Source: Tatumella citrea
Lineage (GTDB): Bacteria > Pseudomonadota > Gammaproteobacteria > Enterobacterales > Enterobacteriaceae
DNA length: 64,000 nucleotides
Assembly (NCBI RefSeq): GCF_002163585.1
Contig: NZ_CP015579.1
Coordinates: forward strand, 3,720,001 to 3,784,000
Reading direction: 5' to 3'
Part shown: piece after piece, positions 10,072 to 20,590 of the stretch
Layout of the letters: each line of letters opens with the position of its first letter
Position numbering within the stretch: the first letter of the stretch is position 1
Program-made: the position numbers and the translations under genes
The notes under the pieces: model-generated
Told to the model about the DNA's origin: nothing
The model's input: the letters and a program-made list of their open reading frames with translations, nothing else
The model's database searches: none

Positions 10072-10140
10072 CCATCGTTTTTCCCACGAATCATTACACA
10101 CCCTCATCGTTGCTCTCTGCTGATGCACTTCCCTGTAAGT

Positions 10141-10244
10141 TGCGCTCTGACTGTGCACTCTGTTGCCCTTTCTAATGATCGAAAAAATCAACTTCATGAT
10201 TTTTAACAACAAAAATTCATAACGATCCTGGCATGATTCATGCT
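10141..10244 (+). promoter_or_regulatory. Predicted sigma-54 promoter with NtrC enhancer and IHF-like site
   Basis: TGGCATGATTCATGCT (10229-10244) matches the sigma-54 consensus TGGCACRNNNNTTGCW at all but two positions, with the -24 GG and -12 GC exactly ten bases apart. TGCGCTCTGACTGTGCA (10141-10157) is a 17-bp near-palindrome of the NtrC type (TGCAC-N7-GTGCA), about 105 bp upstream of the expected start. Between them AATCAACTTCATG (10186-10198) is one base off the IHF consensus. This is the standard layout of a nitrogen-starvation promoter and serves the ABC/hydrolase operon starting at 10313. Confidence 0.75.
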
Positions 10245-10312
10245 TATTTAATTTCATTCAAGTAACTTGAATTTAAATCAATAACTGGACAGAGCCCCAC
10301 GGAGAGTTGAAC

Positions 10313-11167
10313 ATGCGATTTCCACGACTGAGACTGACTACTGCCGCTGTTGTTTCATGTGCCCTGTTGGCGGCATCTGCCGCAGCACATGCCGAAGATT
10401 TACTGGCAAGAATTAAACAGAATAAACAAATCACTATCGCCACTGAGGCGCGCTATGCACCATTTGAATCTGTAGTAGACGGAAAGATCGTGGGCTTCGA
10501 TGTCGATCTGATGAACTACATCCTGAAACAACTGCCTGGTGTCAAAGTGAAACAGTTGGATCTGCCTTTCCAGAGTATCCTGCCGGGTCTGGATGCGAAA
10601 AAATTCGATTTTGTCGTTACCGCGGTGACCGTTAATAAGCAACGGATGGATAATTTTGCTTTTTCTTCTGCAATTGCCGAATCCACGGTGGCATTGCTTA
10701 AACGTAATGATGATAACTCGATTAAATCCCCGGAAGATCTGAGCGGCAAAGTCGTGGGTTCACAGGCGGGTTCCGGTCAGTTACAGATTCTGCAGGATTA
10801 CAACCAGCATCTGAAAAGCGAAGGCAAACCTGGCATTAAAGAAATACGTCAGTATGTCAGTTTTGACGAAGCCTATGCTGACCTTGCCACACATCGTCTG
10901 GACGGTGTAGCCCAGTCACTGGCCAATCTTGGCCCGTTAATCAAAGCGCGGCCAGGTGTGTTCGCCACCCTGCCTGAAATGCTGGGTCCGAAAACCTATT
11001 TTGGCTGGGTTGGACGTAAAGATGCTGACAGCCAGTCTCTGGTGACCTTCTTTAGCGATGGCATCGCCCGGGCTGAAAAAGACGGCACCCTGACGCGCCT
11101 GCAGCAGAAATGGTTTGGCTTTACCACACAGCTGCCACAAGGCCCGATGCCGGTACCTAAGATCTAA
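10313..11167 (+). CDS. Amino-acid-type ABC transporter, periplasmic substrate-binding protein
   Basis: 284-residue family 3 solute-binding protein. A signal peptide (MRFPRLRLTTAAVVS..., cleavage near AAAHAED) precedes the family opening ITIATEARYAPFE and GFDVDLMNYI. I chose ATG 10313, six bases after GGAGAG; the TTG at 10307 abuts that site and is unlikely. It heads a six-gene nitrogen-regulated operon. The downstream amidohydrolase and DUF1989 protein suggest the ligand is a ureide, carbamoyl compound or other nitrogen-rich molecule; this is inferred from context only. Confidence 0.88.
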   Translation: MRFPRLRLTTAAVVSCALLAASAAAHAEDLLARIKQNKQITIATEARYAPFESVVDGKIVGFDVDLMNYILKQLPGVKVKQLDLPFQSILPGLDAKKFDFVVTAVTVNKQRMDNFAFSSAIAESTVALLKRNDDNSIKSPEDLSGKVVGSQAGSGQLQILQDYNQHLKSEGKPGIKEIRQYVSFDEAYADLATHRLDGVAQSLANLGPLIKARPGVFATLPEMLGPKTYFGWVGRKDADSQSLVTFFSDGIARAEKDGTLTRLQQKWFGFTTQLPQGPMPVPKI

Positions 11168-11178
11168 GGCAGGCACTG

Positions 11179-11838
11179 ATGACTGATTTTATTCAACGGC
11201 TGGTGATGTATATCCCACAGTTGCGTCACGGAGCAATGGTGACACTTACACTGTGTGTGGCAGGGATGGCAATTGGCTTTGTTCTGGCAGTGTTGCTCTG
11301 CCAGCTGAGCCAGTCACGGCATAAAAGCCTGCAAGCCTTCTGTGGCGTTTATTGCAGTTTCTTTCGGGGCACGCCATTACTGGCACAATTGCTGTTGTGC
11401 TTTTATCTGCCTACCGCTCTGGGGCTGGATATTCCCGGCACTATGGCCGCCATTATTGTGCTGGCAATGAATACTTCAGCTTATCAGTCACAGATTCTGC
11501 GCAGTGGATTCGATGCCATACCCGGGGGGCAGCTTGAAGCTGCCGCCATTTTTGGGATCAGCCGTTTCAGAACATTGTGCAGCATTCAGCTACCTCAGGT
11601 TTTACGTTTAACCCTCAGCGCACTGGTGTCGGAGTTAATCGATGTCATTAAAGTCTCGGCCGTCGTTTCTGTAGTTTCGGTGACAGACCTGATGCGTGTG
11701 GGGCAGCAGTTGGTTTCTCAGACTTACCGGCCACTGGAAGTTTATCTGGTCACTGCAGTGTTCTATCTGCTGCTGACCAGTTTACTGTCGATGGCCGCCT
11801 CGCTGCTGGAAAAACGTTGGAAGGAGCGCTATCAGTGA
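11179..11838 (+). CDS. ABC transporter permease (HisMQ family)
   Basis: 219-residue inner-membrane permease. It carries hydrophobic segments and the EAA loop (LEAAAIFGISRFRTL followed by QLPQVLRL). It lies 11 bp after the binding-protein gene and overlaps the next permease by a GTGA junction. It should pair with the 215-residue permease to form the channel. Confidence 0.9.
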   Translation: MTDFIQRLVMYIPQLRHGAMVTLTLCVAGMAIGFVLAVLLCQLSQSRHKSLQAFCGVYCSFFRGTPLLAQLLLCFYLPTALGLDIPGTMAAIIVLAMNTSAYQSQILRSGFDAIPGGQLEAAAIFGISRFRTLCSIQLPQVLRLTLSALVSELIDVIKVSAVVSVVSVTDLMRVGQQLVSQTYRPLEVYLVTAVFYLLLTSLLSMAASLLEKRWKERYQ

Positions 11839-12482
11839 ATGCCTACCTCACCGATTTCCCGCTATTTGTTCACGCTTTACTGGTGACCTTACAAGTAAGC
11901 CTGGCTGCAGCCTTACTGGGCGGATTACTGGGATTCGGGCTGAATGCTCTGCGGCTCACCCTGCCGGTTTTCGTGCTGCCTTACCGCTTTTACATCTGGA
12001 TTATTCGCGGAACACCCTATCTGGCACAGCTGTTTGTTGCCTATTTTGGCCTGGCAGTCATTGGAATCACTCTCAGTGCAGTACAGGCCACAATATTGTC
12101 TCTGGCTTTATACAGTGCTGCGTATTTTGCCGAATTGTTTCGTACCGCATGGAATACTGTCCCGGCGGGTCATATTGAGGCAGCCCGTGTCCACGGAATC
12201 CCTGGCCGGCGTATTTTCTGGCATATTCAGGCACCGCAGGCATTCAGCTTCTGTCTGCCATTGCTCGGTAACCAGGTCATTCTGACCATTAAAGAGAGTG
12301 CCGTCGCCTCCATTATTACTGTGCCTGAACTGACCATGACCGCAGGCCAGATTGTCAGTGACACCTTTTCCTATGTGGTGCCATATACCTTGCTGGTGCT
12401 GAGCTATTGGTTCCTGACGCAGAGTGTCACCGTTATTTTTCGTTTCGCCGCACAGCGAACCAACCGTTATCTCAAAGGATGA
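11835..12482 (+). CDS. ABC transporter permease (HisMQ family)
   Basis: 215-residue partner permease. The GTG at 11835 is chosen because AAGGAG lies eight bases upstream and the codon overlaps the stop of the preceding gene; a TTG further upstream would lie before that site. The EAA loop reads IEAARVHGIPGRRIFW. The RGTPYLAQLF segment is typical of polar amino-acid permeases. It is followed after four bases by the ATPase gene. Confidence 0.88.
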   Translation: MNAYLTDFPLFVHALLVTLQVSLAAALLGGLLGFGLNALRLTLPVFVLPYRFYIWIIRGTPYLAQLFVAYFGLAVIGITLSAVQATILSLALYSAAYFAELFRTAWNTVPAGHIEAARVHGIPGRRIFWHIQAPQAFSFCLPLLGNQVILTIKESAVASIITVPELTMTAGQIVSDTFSYVVPYTLLVLSYWFLTQSVTVIFRFAAQRTNRYLKG

Positions 12483-12486
12483 TCGT

Positions 12487-13299
12487 ATGACAACCCTTCC
12501 GCTTCTGGAGCTACGCTCCGTGGGTAAATCTTACGGCTCACATCGTGTGCTCAGTGATATCAGTTTGCAGGTGATGCCTGGTGAAATTGTTTCGCTGATC
12601 GGCCCATCCGGGTCAGGAAAAACCACCGCTCTGCGGTGTATGAACTTTCTTGAAACCTACGATGAAGGTGAAGTCATTATTGCCGGTCAGTTGCTCGGTT
12701 ACAGTGGCAGTCAGCGCGGTGCCAGATTTCAGGACAGCCCGGCCGCCATTGCTGAAGTGCGTCGCCCGTTATCGATGGTCTTTCAGCAGTTCAATCTGTG
12801 GCCACATATGACTGTGCTGGAAAATGTCATGGCGCCGCTGGTTCTGGGAAAAAATATCGCGAAACACCAGGCTCAGAATCAGGCGATTGCTGCACTCGAC
12901 AGAGTCGGAATGCGGCAGAAAATGTCTGCTTTTCCGGCACGCTTATCTGGCGGACAACAGCAGCGGGTGGGTATTGCGCGGGCACTGGCTGTCGAACCAC
13001 AACTGATGTTGCTGGATGAACCGACCTCTGCACTCGACCCTGAGCTGGTTGAAGAGGTACTGCAGGTCATTTCATCACTGGCCAGCGCCGGCATGACCAT
13101 GGTGATGGTCACCCATGAGATGAGCTTTGCTGCCAAAATTTCCAGTCAGGTGGTGTTTATGGAAGCCGGGAAAATTATCGAAACCGGCCCGCCACAAAAA
13201 CTGTTTCATACCCCGGAGACAGAACGCTTACAAACTTTCCTGCGCCCCTGGTTTAACCGCAGTCTTAATTTTTCTGATAACAAGGAACGTGTGTCATGA
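12487..13299 (+). CDS. ABC transporter ATP-binding protein
   Basis: 270-residue ATPase of the polar amino-acid class. Walker A is GPSGSGKTT, the signature LSGGQQQRVG, and Walker B LMLLDEPTSALDPE, followed by the switch histidine in VTHEMSF. Start 12487 (MTTLPLLEL) follows AAAGGA; the longer frame would run back into the permease gene. The stop overlaps the start of the amidohydrolase gene (ATGA), a sign that transport and catabolism are co-translated. Confidence 0.92.
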   Translation: MTTLPLLELRSVGKSYGSHRVLSDISLQVMPGEIVSLIGPSGSGKTTALRCMNFLETYDEGEVIIAGQLLGYSGSQRGARFQDSPAAIAEVRRPLSMVFQQFNLWPHMTVLENVMAPLVLGKNIAKHQAQNQAIAALDRVGMRQKMSAFPARLSGGQQQRVGIARALAVEPQLMLLDEPTSALDPELVEEVLQVISSLASAGMTMVMVTHEMSFAAKISSQVVFMEAGKIIETGPPQKLFHTPETERLQTFLRPWFNRSLNFSDNKERVS

Positions 13300-14555
13300 G
13301 TGATTCCTGTGCCGGGAAACTGGCAATGGCCGTCAGCCAACAGCGCCTGACTGATTCGCTGGAATATCTGGCCAGCTTCGGTTCCACCGGAGATGGCGGG
13401 GTCAACCGTCAGGCACTGTCAGAGCAGGATCTGCAGGCCAGACAATGGCTGGTTGAACGGGCCGTGTCGCTGGGTTGTAGCGTGTTTACCGATGACTGCG
13501 CCAATCTGTTTTTCCGTCGTGCCGGAACCTCAGACCTGCCGCCGGTCGTCACCGGCAGCCATATCGACACTCAGCCGTGCGGCGGAAAATATGATGGCTG
13601 CCTGGGAGTCATGGCCGGATTCGAATGCCTTGCCGCATTGAATGATGCCGGTATTTCTACCTTACGTCCGATAGAAGTCGCCATCTGGATGAATGAAGAA
13701 GGCAGCCGTTTCTCGCCAGGCGCGATGGGTTCCAGCGCATTTGTCCATCCTGAACGCCTGCCACTCTATCTGCAGGCTACCGATGCGGATCAGGTGACTT
13801 TGCAGCAAGCATTAACTGATCATCATCAGGCGTTCCCTGATCTGCCACACCGTGCAGCAATCCCGATGTCCGCATTCCTTGAACTGCATATCGAACAAGG
13901 CCCGGTACTGGAAAATGCTGGGATAACTCTCGGGGCTGTCACTGGCATTCAGGGGGTTCGCTGGTATCAGGTGGTTTGTGAGGGAAGCGCTGCACATGCA
14001 GGCACCACTCCGATGCATATGCGGCGTGATGCTATGTCACTGGCGATTGCTGCCACAGAGCAGCTTCGCCGGTTAGGGGATACTCTGGCGGGGAGTGAGC
14101 TGCGCATTACCTTTGGCCGCTGGCAGGTAGAACCAAATGCTATCAATACCATTCCTTCCAGAGTGACGTTTAGTGTGGATTTCCGGCATGCAGACCCGGC
14201 GGTACTGGAAGCTTTCGATCAGCAACTGACAGAGTGCTTACCTGAATATTGCCAGGCCACTGCCGGTTTTATCCACCCACCCGTGCAGTTCCCTGACACG
14301 ATTGTCGGTACCGTCACCGCCGCCTGTCAGGCACTGAACCAACCGTTTATTACCCTGCGATCAGGCGCATTCCACGATGCGATGTACCTGGCCGCCCATT
14401 GCCCGACCGGAATGATCTTTGTTCCGAGCCGGGACGGTATCAGCCATAACCCCGCAGAATTTACTGAACCTGCGGATCTTACCGCTGGCACCCGGATCCT
14501 TGCCTGGTGTCTGGCCGAACTTGCTAATCAATCTGAATCACCGGAGAGTTTATGA
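13296..14555 (+). CDS. M20-family zinc amidohydrolase (allantoate amidohydrolase / N-carbamoyl-amino-acid hydrolase type)
   Basis: 419-residue metal-dependent hydrolase that should cleave a ureido or carbamoyl C-N bond and release ammonia. The two-metal site is visible: GSHIDTQPCGGKYDG (H89, D100), NEEGSRF (E134/E135), the ELHIEQGP helix, the HAGTTPM dimerisation-domain motif, and GAFHDAM supplying the C-terminal histidine. Relatives include AllC, beta-ureidopropionase and HyuC. The gene is fused into the transporter operon by overlapping start and stop codons on both sides. Allantoate is a sensible guess because purine-catabolic genes lie downstream, but no allantoinase or urate oxidase is visible, so the substrate stays open. 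Confidence 0.85.
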   Translation: MSDSCAGKLAMAVSQQRLTDSLEYLASFGSTGDGGVNRQALSEQDLQARQWLVERAVSLGCSVFTDDCANLFFRRAGTSDLPPVVTGSHIDTQPCGGKYDGCLGVMAGFECLAALNDAGISTLRPIEVAIWMNEEGSRFSPGAMGSSAFVHPERLPLYLQATDADQVTLQQALTDHHQAFPDLPHRAAIPMSAFLELHIEQGPVLENAGITLGAVTGIQGVRWYQVVCEGSAAHAGTTPMHMRRDAMSLAIAATEQLRRLGDTLAGSELRITFGRWQVEPNAINTIPSRVTFSVDFRHADPAVLEAFDQQLTECLPEYCQATAGFIHPPVQFPDTIVGTVTAACQALNQPFITLRSGAFHDAMYLAAHCPTGMIFVPSRDGISHNPAEFTEPADLTAGTRILAWCLAELANQSESPESL

Positions 14556-15250
14556 ACGAGAACACTTACCCTGCCTGCTGCCATAAAGATAACGGCACCT
14601 CATTAGGCCATAACGCAACGCTTGAACAACCTATTTCGGCTGATGGCACCCCGGAAACCGGCAAAACCTATACCGTTCCTGCGCGTTGTGGACGGGCTGT
14701 GAAACTGAAAAAAGGCCAGGTGATCACTATCACCAATACCCACGGGACGCAGGTCTGTGACACGTGGATGTTTAATGCAGAAGATATGAGCGAGTTCCTG
14801 TCAATGGAGCATGCCCGTGCCTTTATCGATAAAATCATTCCTAAGCCAGGCGATTTACTGGTCACCAACCAGCGACGGCCGATTGGTGAACTGATTGCAG
14901 ACACCTCGCCGGGGATTCACGATACCCTGATGGCAGCCTGTGATTTGTATCGTTATACTAATCTTGGTGTTGAAGGCTACCACGACAGCTGTGCTGACAA
15001 TATGCGGATGGCGTTAAATGCTATCGGTCTACGCGCCAGAGAAGTTCCACAGCCGTTTAACTTATGGATGAACATTCCGGTGAAACCGGATTACACTGTT
15101 GACTGGTTGCCGCCGGTATCAAAACCGGGCGATTATGTACAGATTCGTGCCACGATGGATTGTGTGGTAGTGATGTCCGCCTGCCCTCAGGACATTGTGC
15201 CAATCAATGACTTAAATCCGGTCGATGTGCATTTTGTGGTCAACGACTGA
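14552..15250 (+). CDS. DUF1989 / urea-carboxylase-associated family protein
   Basis: 232-residue soluble protein of the DUF1989 family, known from gene clusters for urea amidolyase and related nitrogen metabolism but without a firmly assigned reaction. It has conserved short motifs: VPARCGRAV, NTHGTQVCDTW (about residues 65-75), a SPGIHDTLM segment, and the C-terminal MSACPQDI with a cysteine. The conserved Cys and His residues would suit a metal site or thiol chemistry. The ATG overlaps the stop of the amidohydrolase, so the two products are probably made in equal amounts and act on the same compound. It is the last gene before a terminator. Confidence 0.82.
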   Translation: MNENTYPACCHKDNGTSLGHNATLEQPISADGTPETGKTYTVPARCGRAVKLKKGQVITITNTHGTQVCDTWMFNAEDMSEFLSMEHARAFIDKIIPKPGDLLVTNQRRPIGELIADTSPGIHDTLMAACDLYRYTNLGVEGYHDSCADNMRMALNAIGLRAREVPQPFNLWMNIPVKPDYTVDWLPPVSKPGDYVQIRATMDCVVVMSACPQDIVPINDLNPVDVHFVVND

Positions 15251-15258
15251 TATTACTG

Positions 15259-15283
15259 ACGGCCTCATGATGAGGTCGTTTTT
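15259..15283 (+). terminator. Intrinsic terminator after the ABC/amidohydrolase/DUF1989 operon
   Basis: Stem ACGGCCTCA (15259-15267) / TGAGGTCGT (15271-15279), with one G-U pair and a short loop, then TTTTT. It separates the six-gene operon from the regulator gene that starts 18 bp later, which may be expressed by read-through or from a weak promoter of its own. Confidence 0.8.
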
Positions 15284-15300
15284 CATTCCAGAGAGTACTG

Positions 15301-15915
15301 ATGGCTAATACTGAAAAAAAAACCGCGCAGAATGCACCTTCAGGAAATTCCGCCAGCCTGCCAGGGCTGGGAGGCCGGCTTAAACATGCCCGGCTGGTTG
15401 CAGAGCTGACACTCAAACAAGTCGCAGTACAGGCTGGTTGTTCTGAAAGCCTGATTTCCAAACTCGAACACGATGCCGCTTCACCATCGCTGGCGATGCT
15501 TCACCGCCTGGCACGCGCCCTCAATACCAATATTTCAGATCTGACTGCCGAAACCTGGGAACAGGAAGAACCGGTGCAGACAGCATCAAAACGTTCCCGG
15601 ACCCGGTTTGTTAAACGCAATAAAGGTGGAGGTATTGAGCTGGAACGGCTGACGCCTTCCCGTAAAGGAATGTTATTACAGGGGAATATTCATATTATTG
15701 CCCCCGATACCCGCAGTGACGGGCTGATTGAACATCAGGGTGAAGAGATGGGCTATGTATTAAAAGGGAGTATTGAACTGATTCTGGGTGACAAAAGCTA
15801 TTCGCTGTCTGCCGGGGATTCATTCCATTTTCCCAGCCACATCCCTCACGGCTATCATAACCACGGGGATGAAGAAGCTCAGGTGCTCTGGGTGAATACC
15901 CCGGTCACTTTCTGA
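15301..15915 (+). CDS. XRE-family regulator with C-terminal cupin domain
   Basis: 204-residue regulator. An N-terminal helix-turn-helix (about residues 22-76, LKHARLVAELTLKQVAVQAGCSESLISKLE) is followed by a cupin fold (about 125-200) with HQGEEMGYVLKGSIELILG and the metal-type HFPSHIPHGYHN motif. Such proteins often sense a small metabolite through the cupin and control the adjacent catabolic genes. Its position between the ABC/hydrolase operon and the purine permease operon makes both likely targets. The ligand is not known. Confidence 0.88.
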   Translation: MANTEKKTAQNAPSGNSASLPGLGGRLKHARLVAELTLKQVAVQAGCSESLISKLEHDAASPSLAMLHRLARALNTNISDLTAETWEQEEPVQTASKRSRTRFVKRNKGGGIELERLTPSRKGMLLQGNIHIIAPDTRSDGLIEHQGEEMGYVLKGSIELILGDKSYSLSAGDSFHFPSHIPHGYHNHGDEEAQVLWVNTPVTF

Positions 15916-16413
15916 CAGCCTGCCAGGCTGTTTATTCCACTCAGCAGCAGGCCACAGGCTGATGTTTACCAGCTATATGATGGCTGCTGCGTCTGAAACA
16001 TTAAAATCATTCCATTGATAATCTGCGACCTTAAGTTTCACCTCACCTGATGCCCTCCACACAGAAAAATGAAGACTCACATCGGAAAGATAATAATTAT
16101 TCTTATTATTATAAACAGGTTACCCGCCTGACAATGGTTTCCTTCCCCACAATACACGGCGGATTTTCTGAAATTGCCTCACGCCAGACAACGGTGCATA
16201 AGCATCAAATTGGTGCATCACTGCAAACCAATGAACCAAAAAACAACAAATCCATAAATTGTGAGCCGGTTGTTTCATAAAAGTCATCTGCGATAAATTT
16301 TCTTTAATTCGCCGTGAGTTAGCAATTTCTTAACGATGGCGAGCCTGTGCATGTCGCGATATGGCCTGATTATTGCTTTGGTAAGAAACTTTCGTTTCCC
16401 CGGAGCCAACCCG
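15916..16413 (+). promoter_or_regulatory. Regulatory region with sigma-54 promoter and NtrC-like sites
   Basis: 498 bp without a convincing gene. TGGCCTGATTATTGCT (16362-16377) matches the sigma-54 consensus except at two positions, with -24 GG and -12 GC ten bases apart; transcription should start near 16388. AGCATCAAATTGGTGCA (16201-16217) fits the NtrC consensus at about 13 of 17 positions, and another GGTGCA half-site lies at 16193-16198. A small hairpin (ACAGCC/GGCTGT, 15915-15931) may end the regulator transcript. A 76-codon ORF at 16050 lacks a ribosome-binding site and is probably spurious. Confidence 0.72.
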
Positions 16414-17817
16414 ATGAAGACTCAACGTGATACTGGGCTGTTGTATGGCCTGAATGAGAAAATACCGACCGTCCCTGCGATTTTTACCGCTATTCAGCAC
16501 ATGCTGGCCAGTATCGTCGGTATTATCACCCCGCCACTGATCATTGGTTCAACTCTGGGGCTGAATGCTTACATGCCTTACCTGATCAGCATGTCACTGT
16601 TTGCATCCGGTCTGGGGACTATTCTGCAGGCCGGGCGTTTCTTTTCTATCGGGGCGGGAATGATTTGTCTGCAGGGCACCAGCTTTGCGTTTCTGGGTGT
16701 GATTATCTCCGGTGGGATGATGATCAAAGGCCAGGGCGGAACGCCGGAGCAGATTCTGGCCATGATTTTCGGTTGTAACCTGGTGGCAGCCATTATTCCA
16801 CTGATCGTTAGCCGCTTTATTCATACCTTTTCACGACTGCTGACCCCGCTGGTGACCGGTAGTGTGATTGTACTGATCGGTATTAGCCTGATTAAAGTCA
16901 GCATCAGTGACTGGGGCGGCGGTTTCGGGGCAGCAGATTTCGGTTCTCCGCATAATCTGGGTCTGGGCGCACTGACTCTGGTTGTCATTGTACTGATGAA
17001 TTGCAGTCGCTCACCGTGGCTACGACTGTCCGGGATTGTTACCGGCATTGTGGTTGGTAGTGTGGCCGCCTGGCTGACAGGTTCTTTCCATCCACAGTTT
17101 ACTTCTGGTGGAGAACTACTGACAGTGCCGGTTCCATTCCGCTTTGGTGTAGCGTTTAACCTGAGCGTGTTTATCCCAATTGCTCTGGTATCACTGATTT
17201 CGATTATCGAAGCCGTAGGTGACCTGACAGCCAACTGTATGCTGTCAAAACAACCGGTTGAAGGTCCTGAATTTGAAAAACGTATCAAAGGCGGGATTCT
17301 CGGTGACGGTGTCAGCTGCATTCTGGCCGCTGCTTTTTCCTCTTTCCCGAATACCACGTTTGCACAGAATAATGGCGTGATTCAGATGACCCAGGTGGCC
17401 AGCCGCTATGCGGGCTTCTGGATTGGCGGCATCTTTGTGCTGCTCGGCCTGTTCCCGATGTTTAGCCATGTACTGGAACAACTGCCGCCTCCGGTTCTCG
17501 GTGGTGCCACACTGGTCATGTTCGGTAATGTTGTCGCGGCAGGCATTCGTATTATGACCCGCGAAACTATAGACAACCGGGGCATGCTGATTATTGCCAT
17601 CTCATTTGGTGTTGGTCTGGGTATTGAAGCTCAACCGGATGTGATTAAAGAACTGCCAGCCTTTGCACGCACCCTGCTCCAGAGCGCGGTCACCAGCGGT
17701 GGTATTCTGGCAATTCTGCTGAACCTGGTGCTTCCCCGCTCAAAGCATAAAGCCGAAGTAAATACTCACATTCAGAATGATAGCAACACTTCAATTTCGG
17801 GAGAAACTCATGTCTGA
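16414..17817 (+). CDS. NCS2-family purine (xanthine/urate-type) permease
   Basis: 467-residue membrane transporter importing a purine base with protons. NCS2 hallmarks are the glutamine-histidine pair of TM1 (AIQHMLASIVG), an early LQGTSFAFLG segment, and the NTTFAQNNGVIQMT signature that closely resembles XanQ. I chose ATG 16414 (MKTQRDTG) because it follows GGAG and lies after the predicted sigma-54 start; the longer frame from 16336 would begin upstream of that promoter. Substrate could be xanthine, urate, guanine or 8-oxoguanine, given the deaminase encoded next. Confidence 0.87.
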   Translation: MKTQRDTGLLYGLNEKIPTVPAIFTAIQHMLASIVGIITPPLIIGSTLGLNAYMPYLISMSLFASGLGTILQAGRFFSIGAGMICLQGTSFAFLGVIISGGMMIKGQGGTPEQILAMIFGCNLVAAIIPLIVSRFIHTFSRLLTPLVTGSVIVLIGISLIKVSISDWGGGFGAADFGSPHNLGLGALTLVVIVLMNCSRSPWLRLSGIVTGIVVGSVAAWLTGSFHPQFTSGGELLTVPVPFRFGVAFNLSVFIPIALVSLISIIEAVGDLTANCMLSKQPVEGPEFEKRIKGGILGDGVSCILAAAFSSFPNTTFAQNNGVIQMTQVASRYAGFWIGGIFVLLGLFPMFSHVLEQLPPPVLGGATLVMFGNVVAAGIRIMTRETIDNRGMLIIAISFGVGLGIEAQPDVIKELPAFARTLLQSAVTSGGILAILLNLVLPRSKHKAEVNTHIQNDSNTSISGETHV

Positions 17818-19192
17818 ACAGCACCCGGTTTCCGGAACTTCCGGGCGCAGGATTTGGATTAAACAGCCACTGGCCTGTTTTACTGCCACCGACCAACAGG
17901 CCGGCGGCGGCCTGGTCATCACCGGCAATACCATTAGCGAAGTACTGGCTACGGGACAGCAGCCCTCACAGCCCTGTGACGAAGTATTTGATGCGCGTGA
18001 GCATGTGGTTCTACCAGGGTTAGTAAATACTCACCATCATTTTTATCAGACTCTGACGCGGGCCTGGGGCCCGGTAGTGAGTGAGCCGCTGTTTCCCTGG
18101 TTACAACAGTTATACCCGGTATGGGCAAAACTGACGCCAGAGGCACTGGCCCTCGCAACCGAAGTGGCTATGGCGGAACTATTACTTTCGGGCTGTACCA
18201 CCACCAGCGATCACCATTATCTGTTCCCTCAGGGGATGGAAGATGCCATTGATATTGAAGCTGAGGTGGTCAGTCGGATGGGCATGCGGGCGATGCTGAC
18301 CCGGGGCTCAATGAGTCTTGGTCAGGCCTCCGGCGGCCTGCCTCCTGAGCATACGGTTCAGACCGCAGAAGACATTCTGGCTGACAGCGAGCGTCTGATT
18401 AAACGTTATCATCAGCGTGGTGACGGTGCACAAATTCAGATTGCCTTAGCACCATGCTCTCCTTTTTCGGTTACCACTGATATCATGCGCGCCAGCGCAG
18501 AAATGGCTGAAGCTCTGGATGTCCGTTTGCATACCCATCTGGCCGAAACGCTTGATGAAGAAGAGTTTTGTCTGAAACGTTTCGGTTTGCGTACCGTCGA
18601 TTATCTGGATTCAGTGGGCTGGTTAAGTCACCGCACCTGGCTTGCACACGGAATTCACTTTAATCAGCAGGAAATTGAACGTCTGGGAGCAGCCGGCTGC
18701 GCGATATGCCATTGTCCGGTCTCTAATATGCGTCTCGCCTCAGGGATCTGCAGAACGCTGGAACTGGAACAGGCTGGCGCAATAATCAGCCTGGGCGTTG
18801 ATGGCTCTGCCTCAAACGATGCTTCCAACATGATGTATGAAGCCCGGCAGACGCTGTACCTGCAGCGTTTACGTTACGGTGCCAGGGACATTACCCCGGA
18901 GCTGATCCTGCGCTGGGCGACCCTGGGGGGAGCAAAAGCACTGGGACGCAGCGATATAGGACTGTTGGCGGTGGGTAAACAGGCCGATATATCCCTGTAC
19001 CGGCTGGATGATTTGCGATTCAGCGGCAGTCACGACCCTCTGGCAGCCTTGCTGCTGTGCGGGGCGGAACAGGCTGATCGTGTGATGATTGGCGGCAAAT
19101 GGCGGGTCACCGACGGCAGTATTGTCGGGCTGGATACCGAAGCGCTGATTGCCCGTCATCGTCAGGCGGCAAAGCAACTGGTTATGGCATAA
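17810..19192 (+). CDS. 8-oxoguanine deaminase-like amidohydrolase
   Basis: 460-residue metallo-dependent hydrolase of the ATZ/TRZ/guanine-deaminase branch. Metal ligands are visible: the HxH of GLVNTHHHFYQT (H75, H77), HTHLAET in mid-protein, and the catalytic aspartate in SLGVDGSASND. The family includes enzymes deaminating 8-oxoguanine to urate, and the whole sequence resembles those. Start 17810 (MSEQHPVSG) follows GGGAG and overlaps the permease stop by eight bases. Substrate assignment beyond an aminopurine-like ring remains an inference. Confidence 0.82.
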   Translation: MSEQHPVSGTSGRRIWIKQPLACFTATDQQAGGGLVITGNTISEVLATGQQPSQPCDEVFDAREHVVLPGLVNTHHHFYQTLTRAWGPVVSEPLFPWLQQLYPVWAKLTPEALALATEVAMAELLLSGCTTTSDHHYLFPQGMEDAIDIEAEVVSRMGMRAMLTRGSMSLGQASGGLPPEHTVQTAEDILADSERLIKRYHQRGDGAQIQIALAPCSPFSVTTDIMRASAEMAEALDVRLHTHLAETLDEEEFCLKRFGLRTVDYLDSVGWLSHRTWLAHGIHFNQQEIERLGAAGCAICHCPVSNMRLASGICRTLELEQAGAIISLGVDGSASNDASNMMYEARQTLYLQRLRYGARDITPELILRWATLGGAKALGRSDIGLLAVGKQADISLYRLDDLRFSGSHDPLAALLLCGAEQADRVMIGGKWRVTDGSIVGLDTEALIARHRQAAKQLVMA

Positions 19193-19263
19193 CAAAATAA
19201 AACAGCAGAGCAGCATTGACTGCTCCTGCATAAAAGTAATGTGGCAAAAAACGGGAACGACGA

Positions 19264-20553
19264 ATGAAAAAAATAACTAATGATAGCAATGTACTACGCC
19301 GTGCCGGCTGGCAAAAGGCGATTGGTGGTGGATTACTGGCTGCCTGCCTGTTACCAGTGATGGCTCAGGCCGTCGCCGATGATGGCAACACACAGACTGC
19401 TAACGATTTCAGTGAAATTTTCACCAAAGGTAAAGTCAGCGGTAGTATCCGTTCGCTCTACTATTCCACGCATAATGCCTATTTTGTCTCTAAGTACAAC
19501 CAGGATACCGTCAGCTACGGGGGGTTCCTGAAATATGAAACTGCGCCTTATGACGGCTTTAACCTGGGCGTCAGTGGTTTGTTTGTCCGTGGCATTGATC
19601 ACGGCAGTGCTGAACAAACCGTGAGCGAGCTGGGTGATAACCAGACGAATATCGGTGAGGCCTGGTTACAGTGGAAAGGTGATGATTTCCGCATTACTGG
19701 CGGTAACCAACAGCTGGATTTACCTTTCCTTGGCAGCTATGACTGGCGTATTACTCCTATTATTTACCAGGCCGTGGATATGCAGTATGGCCAGGGTGAA
19801 GATTTCCTGCGCGCAACTAAAGTTTTCCGCTACAAGCCGTGGGGCAGCGATACTCAGGGCCGCTATACCGCCTATGACACTACCGATAAAACCCCGGGCA
19901 TGTGGTCACTGGGCGCCGGACATCACCTGGATGTCGGCAGCACTCATCTGAATGGGGCAGCCTGGTACGAAAGCTATCGTGACTACACCAATATTTTCTA
20001 TACCGAAGGTCACGCCAGCTGGAATAACGTCGCCATGACCCCTGATTTTGGGGTGCAGTATATTCGTGGTACGGGTAACGGCAAAGATCTGGCCGGACCG
20101 GTCAACAGCCAAAGCATCGGCTGGCAGTTATCTCTGAATCTGACACCGCAACTGAACTGGAAACTCGGTTATGACTACCTGGCGAATAACGCCAACAGTT
20201 ATCAGTACGCGCTGGTCACTCCGTACGCACACAACGCGTCATCCGGCCCTTACTTTGCACAACCGTTCTTCACCAGTACTCAGGATTTGGGAAATGGCAA
20301 CGCATGGTCAACCAGCCTGAACTATAACTACAACCAGAATCTGACCGTCGGTACCCGTTATACCTGGATGGATCTGACTCCTCCGGCTGCTTCCGGTAGC
20401 CTGCGTCAGTCAGAATATCTGGTCTATGGCGTCTGGAACTTTGATGGCGTGCTGAAAGGGCTGAGCCTGAACGACTTCCTTGGGGTGCAGACCTCTCCGC
20501 TGTACAAAAAAGATTTCTGGCAGAACCGCGTAACTCTGCAATACGATTTCTAA
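19264..20553 (+). CDS. OprD-family outer-membrane porin
   Basis: 429-residue beta-barrel precursor. A long signal region (cleavage near AQAVADD, residues 33-40) precedes FSEIFTKGKVSGSIRSLYYST, the typical OprD-family start, and alternating amphipathic strands follow. It ends in an aromatic residue (LQYDF), as required for outer-membrane insertion. It lies 71 bp after the deaminase gene on the same strand and before a strong terminator. It probably lets the cluster substrate (a small nitrogenous compound) cross the outer membrane. A GCAG-rich hairpin at 19205-19228 sits in the gap. Confidence 0.85.
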   Translation: MKKITNDSNVLRRAGWQKAIGGGLLAACLLPVMAQAVADDGNTQTANDFSEIFTKGKVSGSIRSLYYSTHNAYFVSKYNQDTVSYGGFLKYETAPYDGFNLGVSGLFVRGIDHGSAEQTVSELGDNQTNIGEAWLQWKGDDFRITGGNQQLDLPFLGSYDWRITPIIYQAVDMQYGQGEDFLRATKVFRYKPWGSDTQGRYTAYDTTDKTPGMWSLGAGHHLDVGSTHLNGAAWYESYRDYTNIFYTEGHASWNNVAMTPDFGVQYIRGTGNGKDLAGPVNSQSIGWQLSLNLTPQLNWKLGYDYLANNANSYQYALVTPYAHNASSGPYFAQPFFTSTQDLGNGNAWSTSLNYNYNQNLTVGTRYTWMDLTPPAASGSLRQSEYLVYGVWNFDGVLKGLSLNDFLGVQTSPLYKKDFWQNRVTLQYDF

Positions 20554-20563
20554 TGTATTTTCC

Positions 20564-20590
20564 GGCGGGTGCCTGCACCCGCTGTTTTTC
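20564..20590 (+). terminator. Intrinsic terminator after the porin gene
   Basis: Stem GCGGGTG (20565-20571) / CACCCGC (20576-20582) with a four-base loop, followed by TG and TTTTT. It ends the purine permease/deaminase/porin operon. Confidence 0.85.

Follow-up and report, generated by a model that had tools for sequence, protein, structure and literature searches.

We analysed a window of 64 kb, which is part of the 4.49-Mb genome of the plant-associated bacterium Tatumella citrea. The nearest named relative found is Tatumella morbirosei (98% identity in the DUF1989 protein). The window contains ten genes, which a preliminary description of the sequence had joined into one nitrogen-scavenging pathway. 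These genes lie on the same strand in two adjacent groups. Seven genes at 10313-15915 (unit A) encode an ATP-binding cassette (ABC) importer, an M20-family amidohydrolase, a DUF1989 protein and an XRE-cupin regulator. The other three, at 16414-20553 (unit B), encode a purine permease, an 8-oxoguanine deaminase and a probable porin (Table 1). We consider it likely that these are two independent nitrogen-limitation units side by side: unit B would lead to the urate route of the hpx genes, and unit A would serve for an N-blocked acid under the control of the XRE-cupin protein.

Table 1. Genes and predicted control elements of units A and B (window positions)
Feature	Position	Strand	Remarks
NtrC-like site 1, unit A	10111..10127	+	TGCTCTCTGCTGATGCA; centre about -136 from predicted start
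NtrC-like site 2, unit A	10141..10157	+	TGCGCTCTGACTGTGCA; centre about -106
Sigma-54 promoter, unit A (predicted)	10229..10244	+	TGGCATGATTCATGCT; conserved in 71/71 homologous upstream regions
17-bp palindrome	10256..10272	.	ATTCAAGTAACTTGAAT; about +2 to +18 from predicted start; probable XRE-cupin operator
Amino-acid-type ABC substrate-binding protein	10313..11167	+	Arg111 conserved; Ser202 in place of the ammonium-binding Asp
ABC permease 1	11179..11838	+	
ABC permease 2	11817..12482	+	start codon uncertain
ABC ATPase	12487..13299	+	first ATG; frame opens at 12424
M20-family amidohydrolase, hydantoinase/carbamoylase subfamily	13296..14555	+	
DUF1989 protein	14552..15250	+	zinc-site residues intact by alignment; below cut-offs of CgdA/CgdB-type models
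Terminator-like hairpin	15258..15280	+	separates DUF1989 and XRE-cupin genes; might control read-through
XRE-cupin transcription regulator	15301..15915	+	co-occurs with palindrome
NtrC-like site, unit B	16201..16217	+	AGCATCAAATTGGTGCA
Sigma-54 promoter, unit B (predicted)	16362..16377	+	TGGCCTGATTATTGCT; like element in 6/6 close permease relatives
NCS2 nucleobase permease, xanthine-permease subfamily	16414..17817	+	
8-oxoguanine deaminase	17777..19192	+	NF006055, 687 bits (cut-off 532); start possibly 17810
Probable outer-membrane porin, weakly Opr-like	19264..20553	+	22 bits, well under the cut-offs; without a Pfam match

Sigma-54 and NtrC scores were calculated from consensus sequences with hand-set weights on both strands of the window. 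The two sigma-54 elements named in the preliminary description are present, and in both of them exactly 10 bp separate GG and GC. Their predicted transcription starts are at about 10255 and 16388. They were the two best sites in the window (16362, 19.0; 10229, 18.5), with a small margin over eight further sites at 18.0. The NtrC-type near-palindromes that had been described at 10141-10157 and 16201-16217 are also present; the second site of unit A, at 10111-10127 and spaced 30 bp from the first, had been overlooked. In the NtrC ranking, the 16201 site was top and the 10141 site (18.5) was outscored by a site within the M20 gene at 14001 (19.0). A loose sigma-54 pattern gave 241 matches genome-wide versus 37 in a reversed control. 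Because such a pattern is common in the genome, the evidence for the promoters is their conservation and not the motif alone.

Relatives of unit A were collected with the DUF1989 protein: 80 loci were kept from 85 matches, and up to 9 kb of flanking sequence, less at contig ends, was inspected around them. The complete seven-gene unit, in identical gene order, was found in 71 of the 80 loci, and unit A is spread over about 15 genera of gamma- and beta-proteobacteria (counted from record titles). The comparison of upstream regions was restricted to loci in which the binding protein matched at 55% identity or more (71 of the 80). The controls were 946 upstream regions of other genes from the same loci, many of which lie inside genes. 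The sigma-54 score attained by 71/71 homologous regions was attained by 46/946 controls and 6/71 reversed regions. In addition, TGGCAYRNNTCATGC was found in 70/71 regions but in none of the controls or the 71 reversed regions, and the form TGGC[AC]YRNNTCATGC precedes the binding-protein gene at a distance of about 60-113 bp in all 71 loci. In one locus (L040), the best-scoring sigma-54-like site lies elsewhere (-294) and the conserved site is also present. An NtrC score of at least 17.5 was observed in 53/71 regions versus 60/946 controls; by group, it was observed in 20/20 enterobacterial loci and 33/51 others. Perfect TGCAC-N7-GTGCA occurred in 8/71 regions versus 0/946 controls, and locus L004 has an NtrC-like site, TGCACTCTGCTGATGCA, at the position equivalent to 10111-10127. 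The IHF-like site that had been placed between enhancer and promoter was at chance level. The candidates at 10186-10198 and 10189-10201 carry one mismatch, one-mismatch matches in the window numbered 58 versus 58.5 expected, and exact matches were found in 0/71 homologous regions versus 3/946 controls.

The second promoter was judged on the relatives of the permease, without a control set of unrelated upstream regions, unlike the first. Twenty-eight relatives were found in the order, and the six closest (56-65% identity) come from other genera of the same family, three of them from one genus. In each of the six, a sigma-54-like element lies 50-55 bp before the gene and an NtrC-like site lies farther upstream, at 172-243 bp. 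By shuffling, which was applied to three relatives, these elements are individually marginal (p about 0.06 for each sigma-54 element; 0.00-0.013 for the NtrC-like sites). In nine more distant relatives, the better-scoring element lies farther from the gene, at -76 to -94 in seven and at -102 in two. The permease keeps its own sigma-54/NtrC-like promoter in genomes where other genes adjoin it. The conservation indicates that the predicted sigma-54 promoters at 10229 and 16362 are real, and the nitrogen-limitation control proposed in the preliminary description seems well supported for unit A and fairly supported for unit B.

When the 71 upstream regions were aligned on the promoter, a second conserved block, ATTCAAGTNACTTGAAT, appeared constantly 27 bp after the T of TGG. 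At this offset there were on average 0.56 mismatches of 16 (maximum 4), as compared with 11-14 at seven other offsets. This block is the palindrome at 10256-10272, which, like the NtrC-like site at 10111-10127, is additional to the elements listed previously. Allowing at most two mismatches, the palindrome was found in 66 of the 71 loci that possess an XRE-cupin gene and in none of the nine that do not, and it occurs once in the T. citrea genome, before unit A. The exact palindrome was found in one of 369 genomes of the class, namely T. citrea itself, and in two of 394 genomes of the order; both copies precede unit A (the unit A content of the 394 was not surveyed). Copies with one mismatch were considered as a possible regulon: there are 38 sites (two exact, 36 with one mismatch) in 34 of the 394 genomes. 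However, the reversed pattern matches about 54 genomes, and among 30 stretches around such matches (L155-L184) unit A was present only in those with the two exact sites. Therefore, one-mismatch matches mean little. The position of the palindrome and its co-occurrence with the regulator gene suggest that it is probably read by the XRE-cupin protein as a repressor over the start, which would block transcription as long as no inducer is present. It is unlikely that the palindrome is instead an additional activator site or an RNA element: it sits in the presumed 5′ leader, the operator role is deduced from sequence, and the loci without the XRE gene are divergent in any case, but the palindrome tracks this gene and its position fits a repressor. 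The hairpin at 15258-15280 could restrict expression of the regulator.

Two steps, urate oxidase and allantoinase, had been described as missing. This was an effect of the window edge, because both steps are encoded in the same genome. HpxO, a urate hydroxylase (628 bits; cut-off 500), is encoded at 2.09 Mb beside a guanine deaminase (593; cut-off 375). A cluster of hpx genes at 3.286-3.296 Mb encodes hydroxyisourate hydrolase, OHCU decarboxylase, allantoate amidohydrolase (757; cut-off 584), HpxZ and the allantoinase PuuE, together with a transaminase-like protein, a binding protein, an AtzE-family amidohydrolase and a gamma-glutamyltransferase-like protein, which is below its cut-off (305 versus 358). 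Genes of the standard oxidative urate route are present for urate hydroxylase, hydroxyisourate hydrolase, OHCU decarboxylase and allantoinase. We scanned both strands of five stretches of the genome (about 85 kb) for promoters. Sigma-54-like sites paired with NtrC-like ones were found a short way upstream of the genes for the hpx binding protein, HpxO and guanine deaminase; the sigma-54-like site before puuE has no such partner. Two further sigma-54-like sites with NtrC-like partners lie between a guanidine-type operon (described below) and a divergent ABC operon; the remaining matches are inside genes or without an assigned gene. Most likely, unit B feeds the HpxO/allantoin route. NtrC and sigma-54 would switch on the permease, deaminase and porin genes (16362-20553), 8-oxoguanine would be imported and, according to the family assignment, deaminated to urate, and urate would then enter the route encoded elsewhere in the genome.

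Could all ten genes form a single purine-nitrogen pathway, in which the M20 enzyme acts on allantoate derived from urate and the DUF1989 protein on the next intermediate? The units are adjacent, lie on the same strand and both have NtrC-like and sigma-54 sites. The M20 protein just passes the allantoate amidohydrolase subfamily model NF006771 (400.0 versus 399), and four or five relatives have a further copy of the palindrome before a gene for a hydrolase related to the PuuE allantoinase. Furthermore, in Caballeronia (locus L065, 13337-14706 and on), distant relatives of the deaminase and permease (25-26% identity) are encoded near unit A on the opposite strand. However, of the 80 loci, the one from the other Tatumella is the only one in which genes for close relatives of the permease and deaminase stand next to unit A. 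The hpx cluster already contains an allantoate amidohydrolase, the M20 protein scores 253 where the AllC model requires 598, and the only copy of the palindrome in the genome precedes unit A. A single pathway is, on these grounds, distinctly improbable; most likely, both units belong to the NtrC regulon and are not steps of one route. The M20 protein was, for the same two reasons of model score and separate enzyme, rejected as the allantoate enzyme of this genome.

The substrate of unit A was approached through its proteins. For the binding protein, open reading frames with at least 40% identity and more than 70% coverage were aligned (68 sequences and the window protein). The carboxylate-binding Arg111 is present in 69/69 sequences. 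The Asp of GlnH binds the alpha-ammonium group, and where GlnH and AncQR have this residue, Ser202 was found in 69/69; the Arg and Asp pair typical of GlnH-type binding of free amino acids is therefore absent. For comparison, two other amino-acid-type binding proteins keep Asp, and that of the T. citrea hpx cluster has Gly. The metal-site residues are present in the M20 protein, and its nearest relatives of solved structure bear the names deacylase or putative amidohydrolase. In the DUF1989 protein, three zinc cysteines and the conserved Asp and His are aligned with the zinc-site residues that the excerpted text of PMC12560246 names for another member of the family. The change in the binding pocket, together with the M20 and DUF1989 families, points to an acid with a blocked amino group. 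Thus, unit A probably degrades a ureido or guanidino acid and frees its ammonia hydrolytically. In the proposed mechanism (10111-15915), NtrC and sigma-54 would switch on the genes for the importer and both hydrolases, the importer would carry the N-blocked carboxylic acid, the M20 enzyme would cleave the carbamoyl group and the DUF1989 protein would release ammonia in a deiminase-type reaction.

No paper that we found names the substrate of the unit A operon, and the letters of the putative operator were matched in a single paper, on Enterococcus (PMC5971576). The amino-acid ABC set BCAS0574-0577 and BCAS0571 are NtrC-dependent by RNA-seq in Burkholderia cenocepacia (PMC5491218), and the hydantoinase operon Bphy_6150-52 of Paraburkholderia phymatum lies behind an RpoN box (PMC5979394); these genes are candidate counterparts of unit A. 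P. phymatum does hold unit A with the promoter and the palindrome.

Within the DUF1989 family, CgdAB is a carboxyguanidine deiminase, according to the excerpted text of PMC11271267. The unit A protein was tried as CgdA or CgdB and rejected: it scores 112 and 68 against the TIGR03424 and TIGR03425 cut-offs of 285 and 206, and a UAAP1/UAAP2 pair sits elsewhere in the genome (L114, 5638-13499) with a urea-carboxylase-type gene and its own ABC importer. Because this set is encoded separately, unit A is unlikely to be the guanidine route. A fourth DUF1989 protein of the genome (L115, 8090-9076) has no NCBIfam match and adjoins a PhnR-like regulator and an amino-acid-type ABC importer. A guanidino-acid route, in which the DUF1989 protein would deiminate a guanidino acid to a ureido acid and the M20 enzyme would hydrolyse the latter, is a somewhat doubtful possibility. 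The activity of the CgdAB relative, the intact zinc site and the loss of the ammonium-binding Asp are consistent with this idea. In addition, the Vreelandella unit A locus (L079) carries an agmatinase-family gene, and of five more distant DUF1989 loci, one (Salipiger, L118) has arginase-family genes. However, the other four of these five have an amidase gene and a gene annotated as polysaccharide deacetylase instead of ureohydrolase genes.

The PuuE-related operon suggests another substrate. In four loci (L016, L017, L024 and L035), a second palindrome and a sigma-54-like site precede a neighbouring operon for a BMP-family importer and the PuuE-related hydrolase; in L040, the palindrome before an operon of the same type has three mismatches. 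If this hydrolase opens a hydantoin-like ring, the M20 enzyme could decarbamoylate the product and the DUF1989 protein could then remove ammonia, and genomes without the gene would use the open-chain acid only. We hold this cyclic-ureide route to be possible, though tentative. The shared control elements, the annotated polysaccharide deacetylase genes beside DUF1989 in the four distant loci and the atrazine-binding protein among the PDB relatives of the BMP binding protein (of which Lbp is the best match) argue for it. In contrast, the hydrolase has a polysaccharide-deacetylase fold and is distant from PuuE (96 bits versus a cut-off of 425 in L024); the best solved relative of the L016 protein is a functionally unassigned polysaccharide deacetylase (208 bits), and PuuE itself gave 78 bits. 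Moreover, no PuuE-related gene lies by unit A in Tatumella, and ureohydrolase genes occur instead in the Vreelandella and Salipiger loci. It is also conceivable, but very improbable, that unit A and the PuuE-related operon form an undescribed nitrogen-scavenging route for a guanidine-bearing cyclic ureide, for example an oxidised-guanine product of the guanidinohydantoin or iminoallantoin type, with ring opening by the PuuE-related enzyme, deimination by DUF1989 and ureido cleavage by M20. Control would lie with NtrC and a new repressor of the XRE-cupin type. If true, this would explain why unit A lies beside 8-oxoguanine deaminase in Tatumella.

Several points weigh against two independent units of the kind that we favour, a reading drawn from sequence and gene context. 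The 71 loci represent the nearest relatives, with an uneven sampling of genera. Outside the enterobacteria the NtrC-like sites are weaker (the 33/51 loci above), and another sigma-54 activator could act there. Five loci with an XRE gene (in Mangrovibacter, Phytobacter and Kosakonia) carry the palindrome with three or four mismatches; in the three that were inspected, the left arm and centre are kept. In the nine loci, lack of the XRE gene coincides with the strongest divergence or with absence of the importer, so that the palindrome contrast is confounded. The loss of Asp from the binding pocket is an argument from alignment. For unit B, 13 of the 28 permease relatives have no sigma-54-like site, and in half of the six closest the stretch examined contains no deaminase gene. 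The deaminase search gave matches in 10 of 149 genomes of the family. Among five close relatives from other genomes (69-75% identity), two have neither the permease nor sigma-54/NtrC-like sites before them. The other three have the permease directly before them, beside epmA or lipA, and no unit A gene was found within the 17-19 kb examined around these. We continue to regard two independent units as the likely arrangement.

Other arrangements were also observed. The DUF1989 protein is present in two of the six genomes of the genus Tatumella. It was matched in 19 Klebsiella plasmid records; in the one examined (K. pneumoniae, L121, 5766-11329), the whole of unit A is flanked by IS3-type insertion sequences. 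In three loci (L033, L045 and L056), M20 and DUF1989 genes occur without the importer or the XRE regulator and have a luciferase-like monooxygenase gene upstream, and in L033 and L045 a molybdopterin hydroxylase gene is nearby. In L098 (4009-10392), the gene for a relative of 8-oxoguanine deaminase follows an amino-acid-type ABC set and the gene for a protein with weak similarity to BhcC.

Unit A appears as a complete, conserved and widespread nitrogen-scavenging operon with a predicted second conserved control site. The putative operator, the altered binding pocket and the ring hydrolase found under the same operator in some relatives would narrow its substrate to N-blocked acids. It also gives the DUF1989 family a further context besides CgdAB and trimethylamine N-oxide demethylase.

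Finally, we compared both units with known systems. Promoters of the glnAp2 type have a sigma-54/NtrC layout. Unit A likewise has a -24/-12 element and a pair of NtrC-like sites, which are spaced by about 30 bp and lie 100-140 bp upstream, but it differs in the second conserved palindrome over the start and in the near-invariant TCATGC of the -12 region. The regulator has the XRE-cupin architecture of PuuR, although it is below the NF007408 cut-off (76 versus 211 bits). The M20 enzyme belongs to the family of AllC and N-carbamoyl-L-amino acid hydrolase and shares their metal-site residues, and differs in falling below the AllC model (TIGR03176). The DUF1989 protein is related to CgdAB (UAAP1/2) by family and zinc site; in contrast to that pair, it is a single-subunit protein with no carboxylase beside it. 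The hpx genes of Klebsiella serve purine catabolism. Nitrogen-type control signals and the urate route are common ground with them, and unit B would supply urate. Unit B has 8-oxoguanine deaminase and a porin in addition, and its distance is about 440 kb to the hpx cluster of T. citrea and 1.6 Mb to hpxO.

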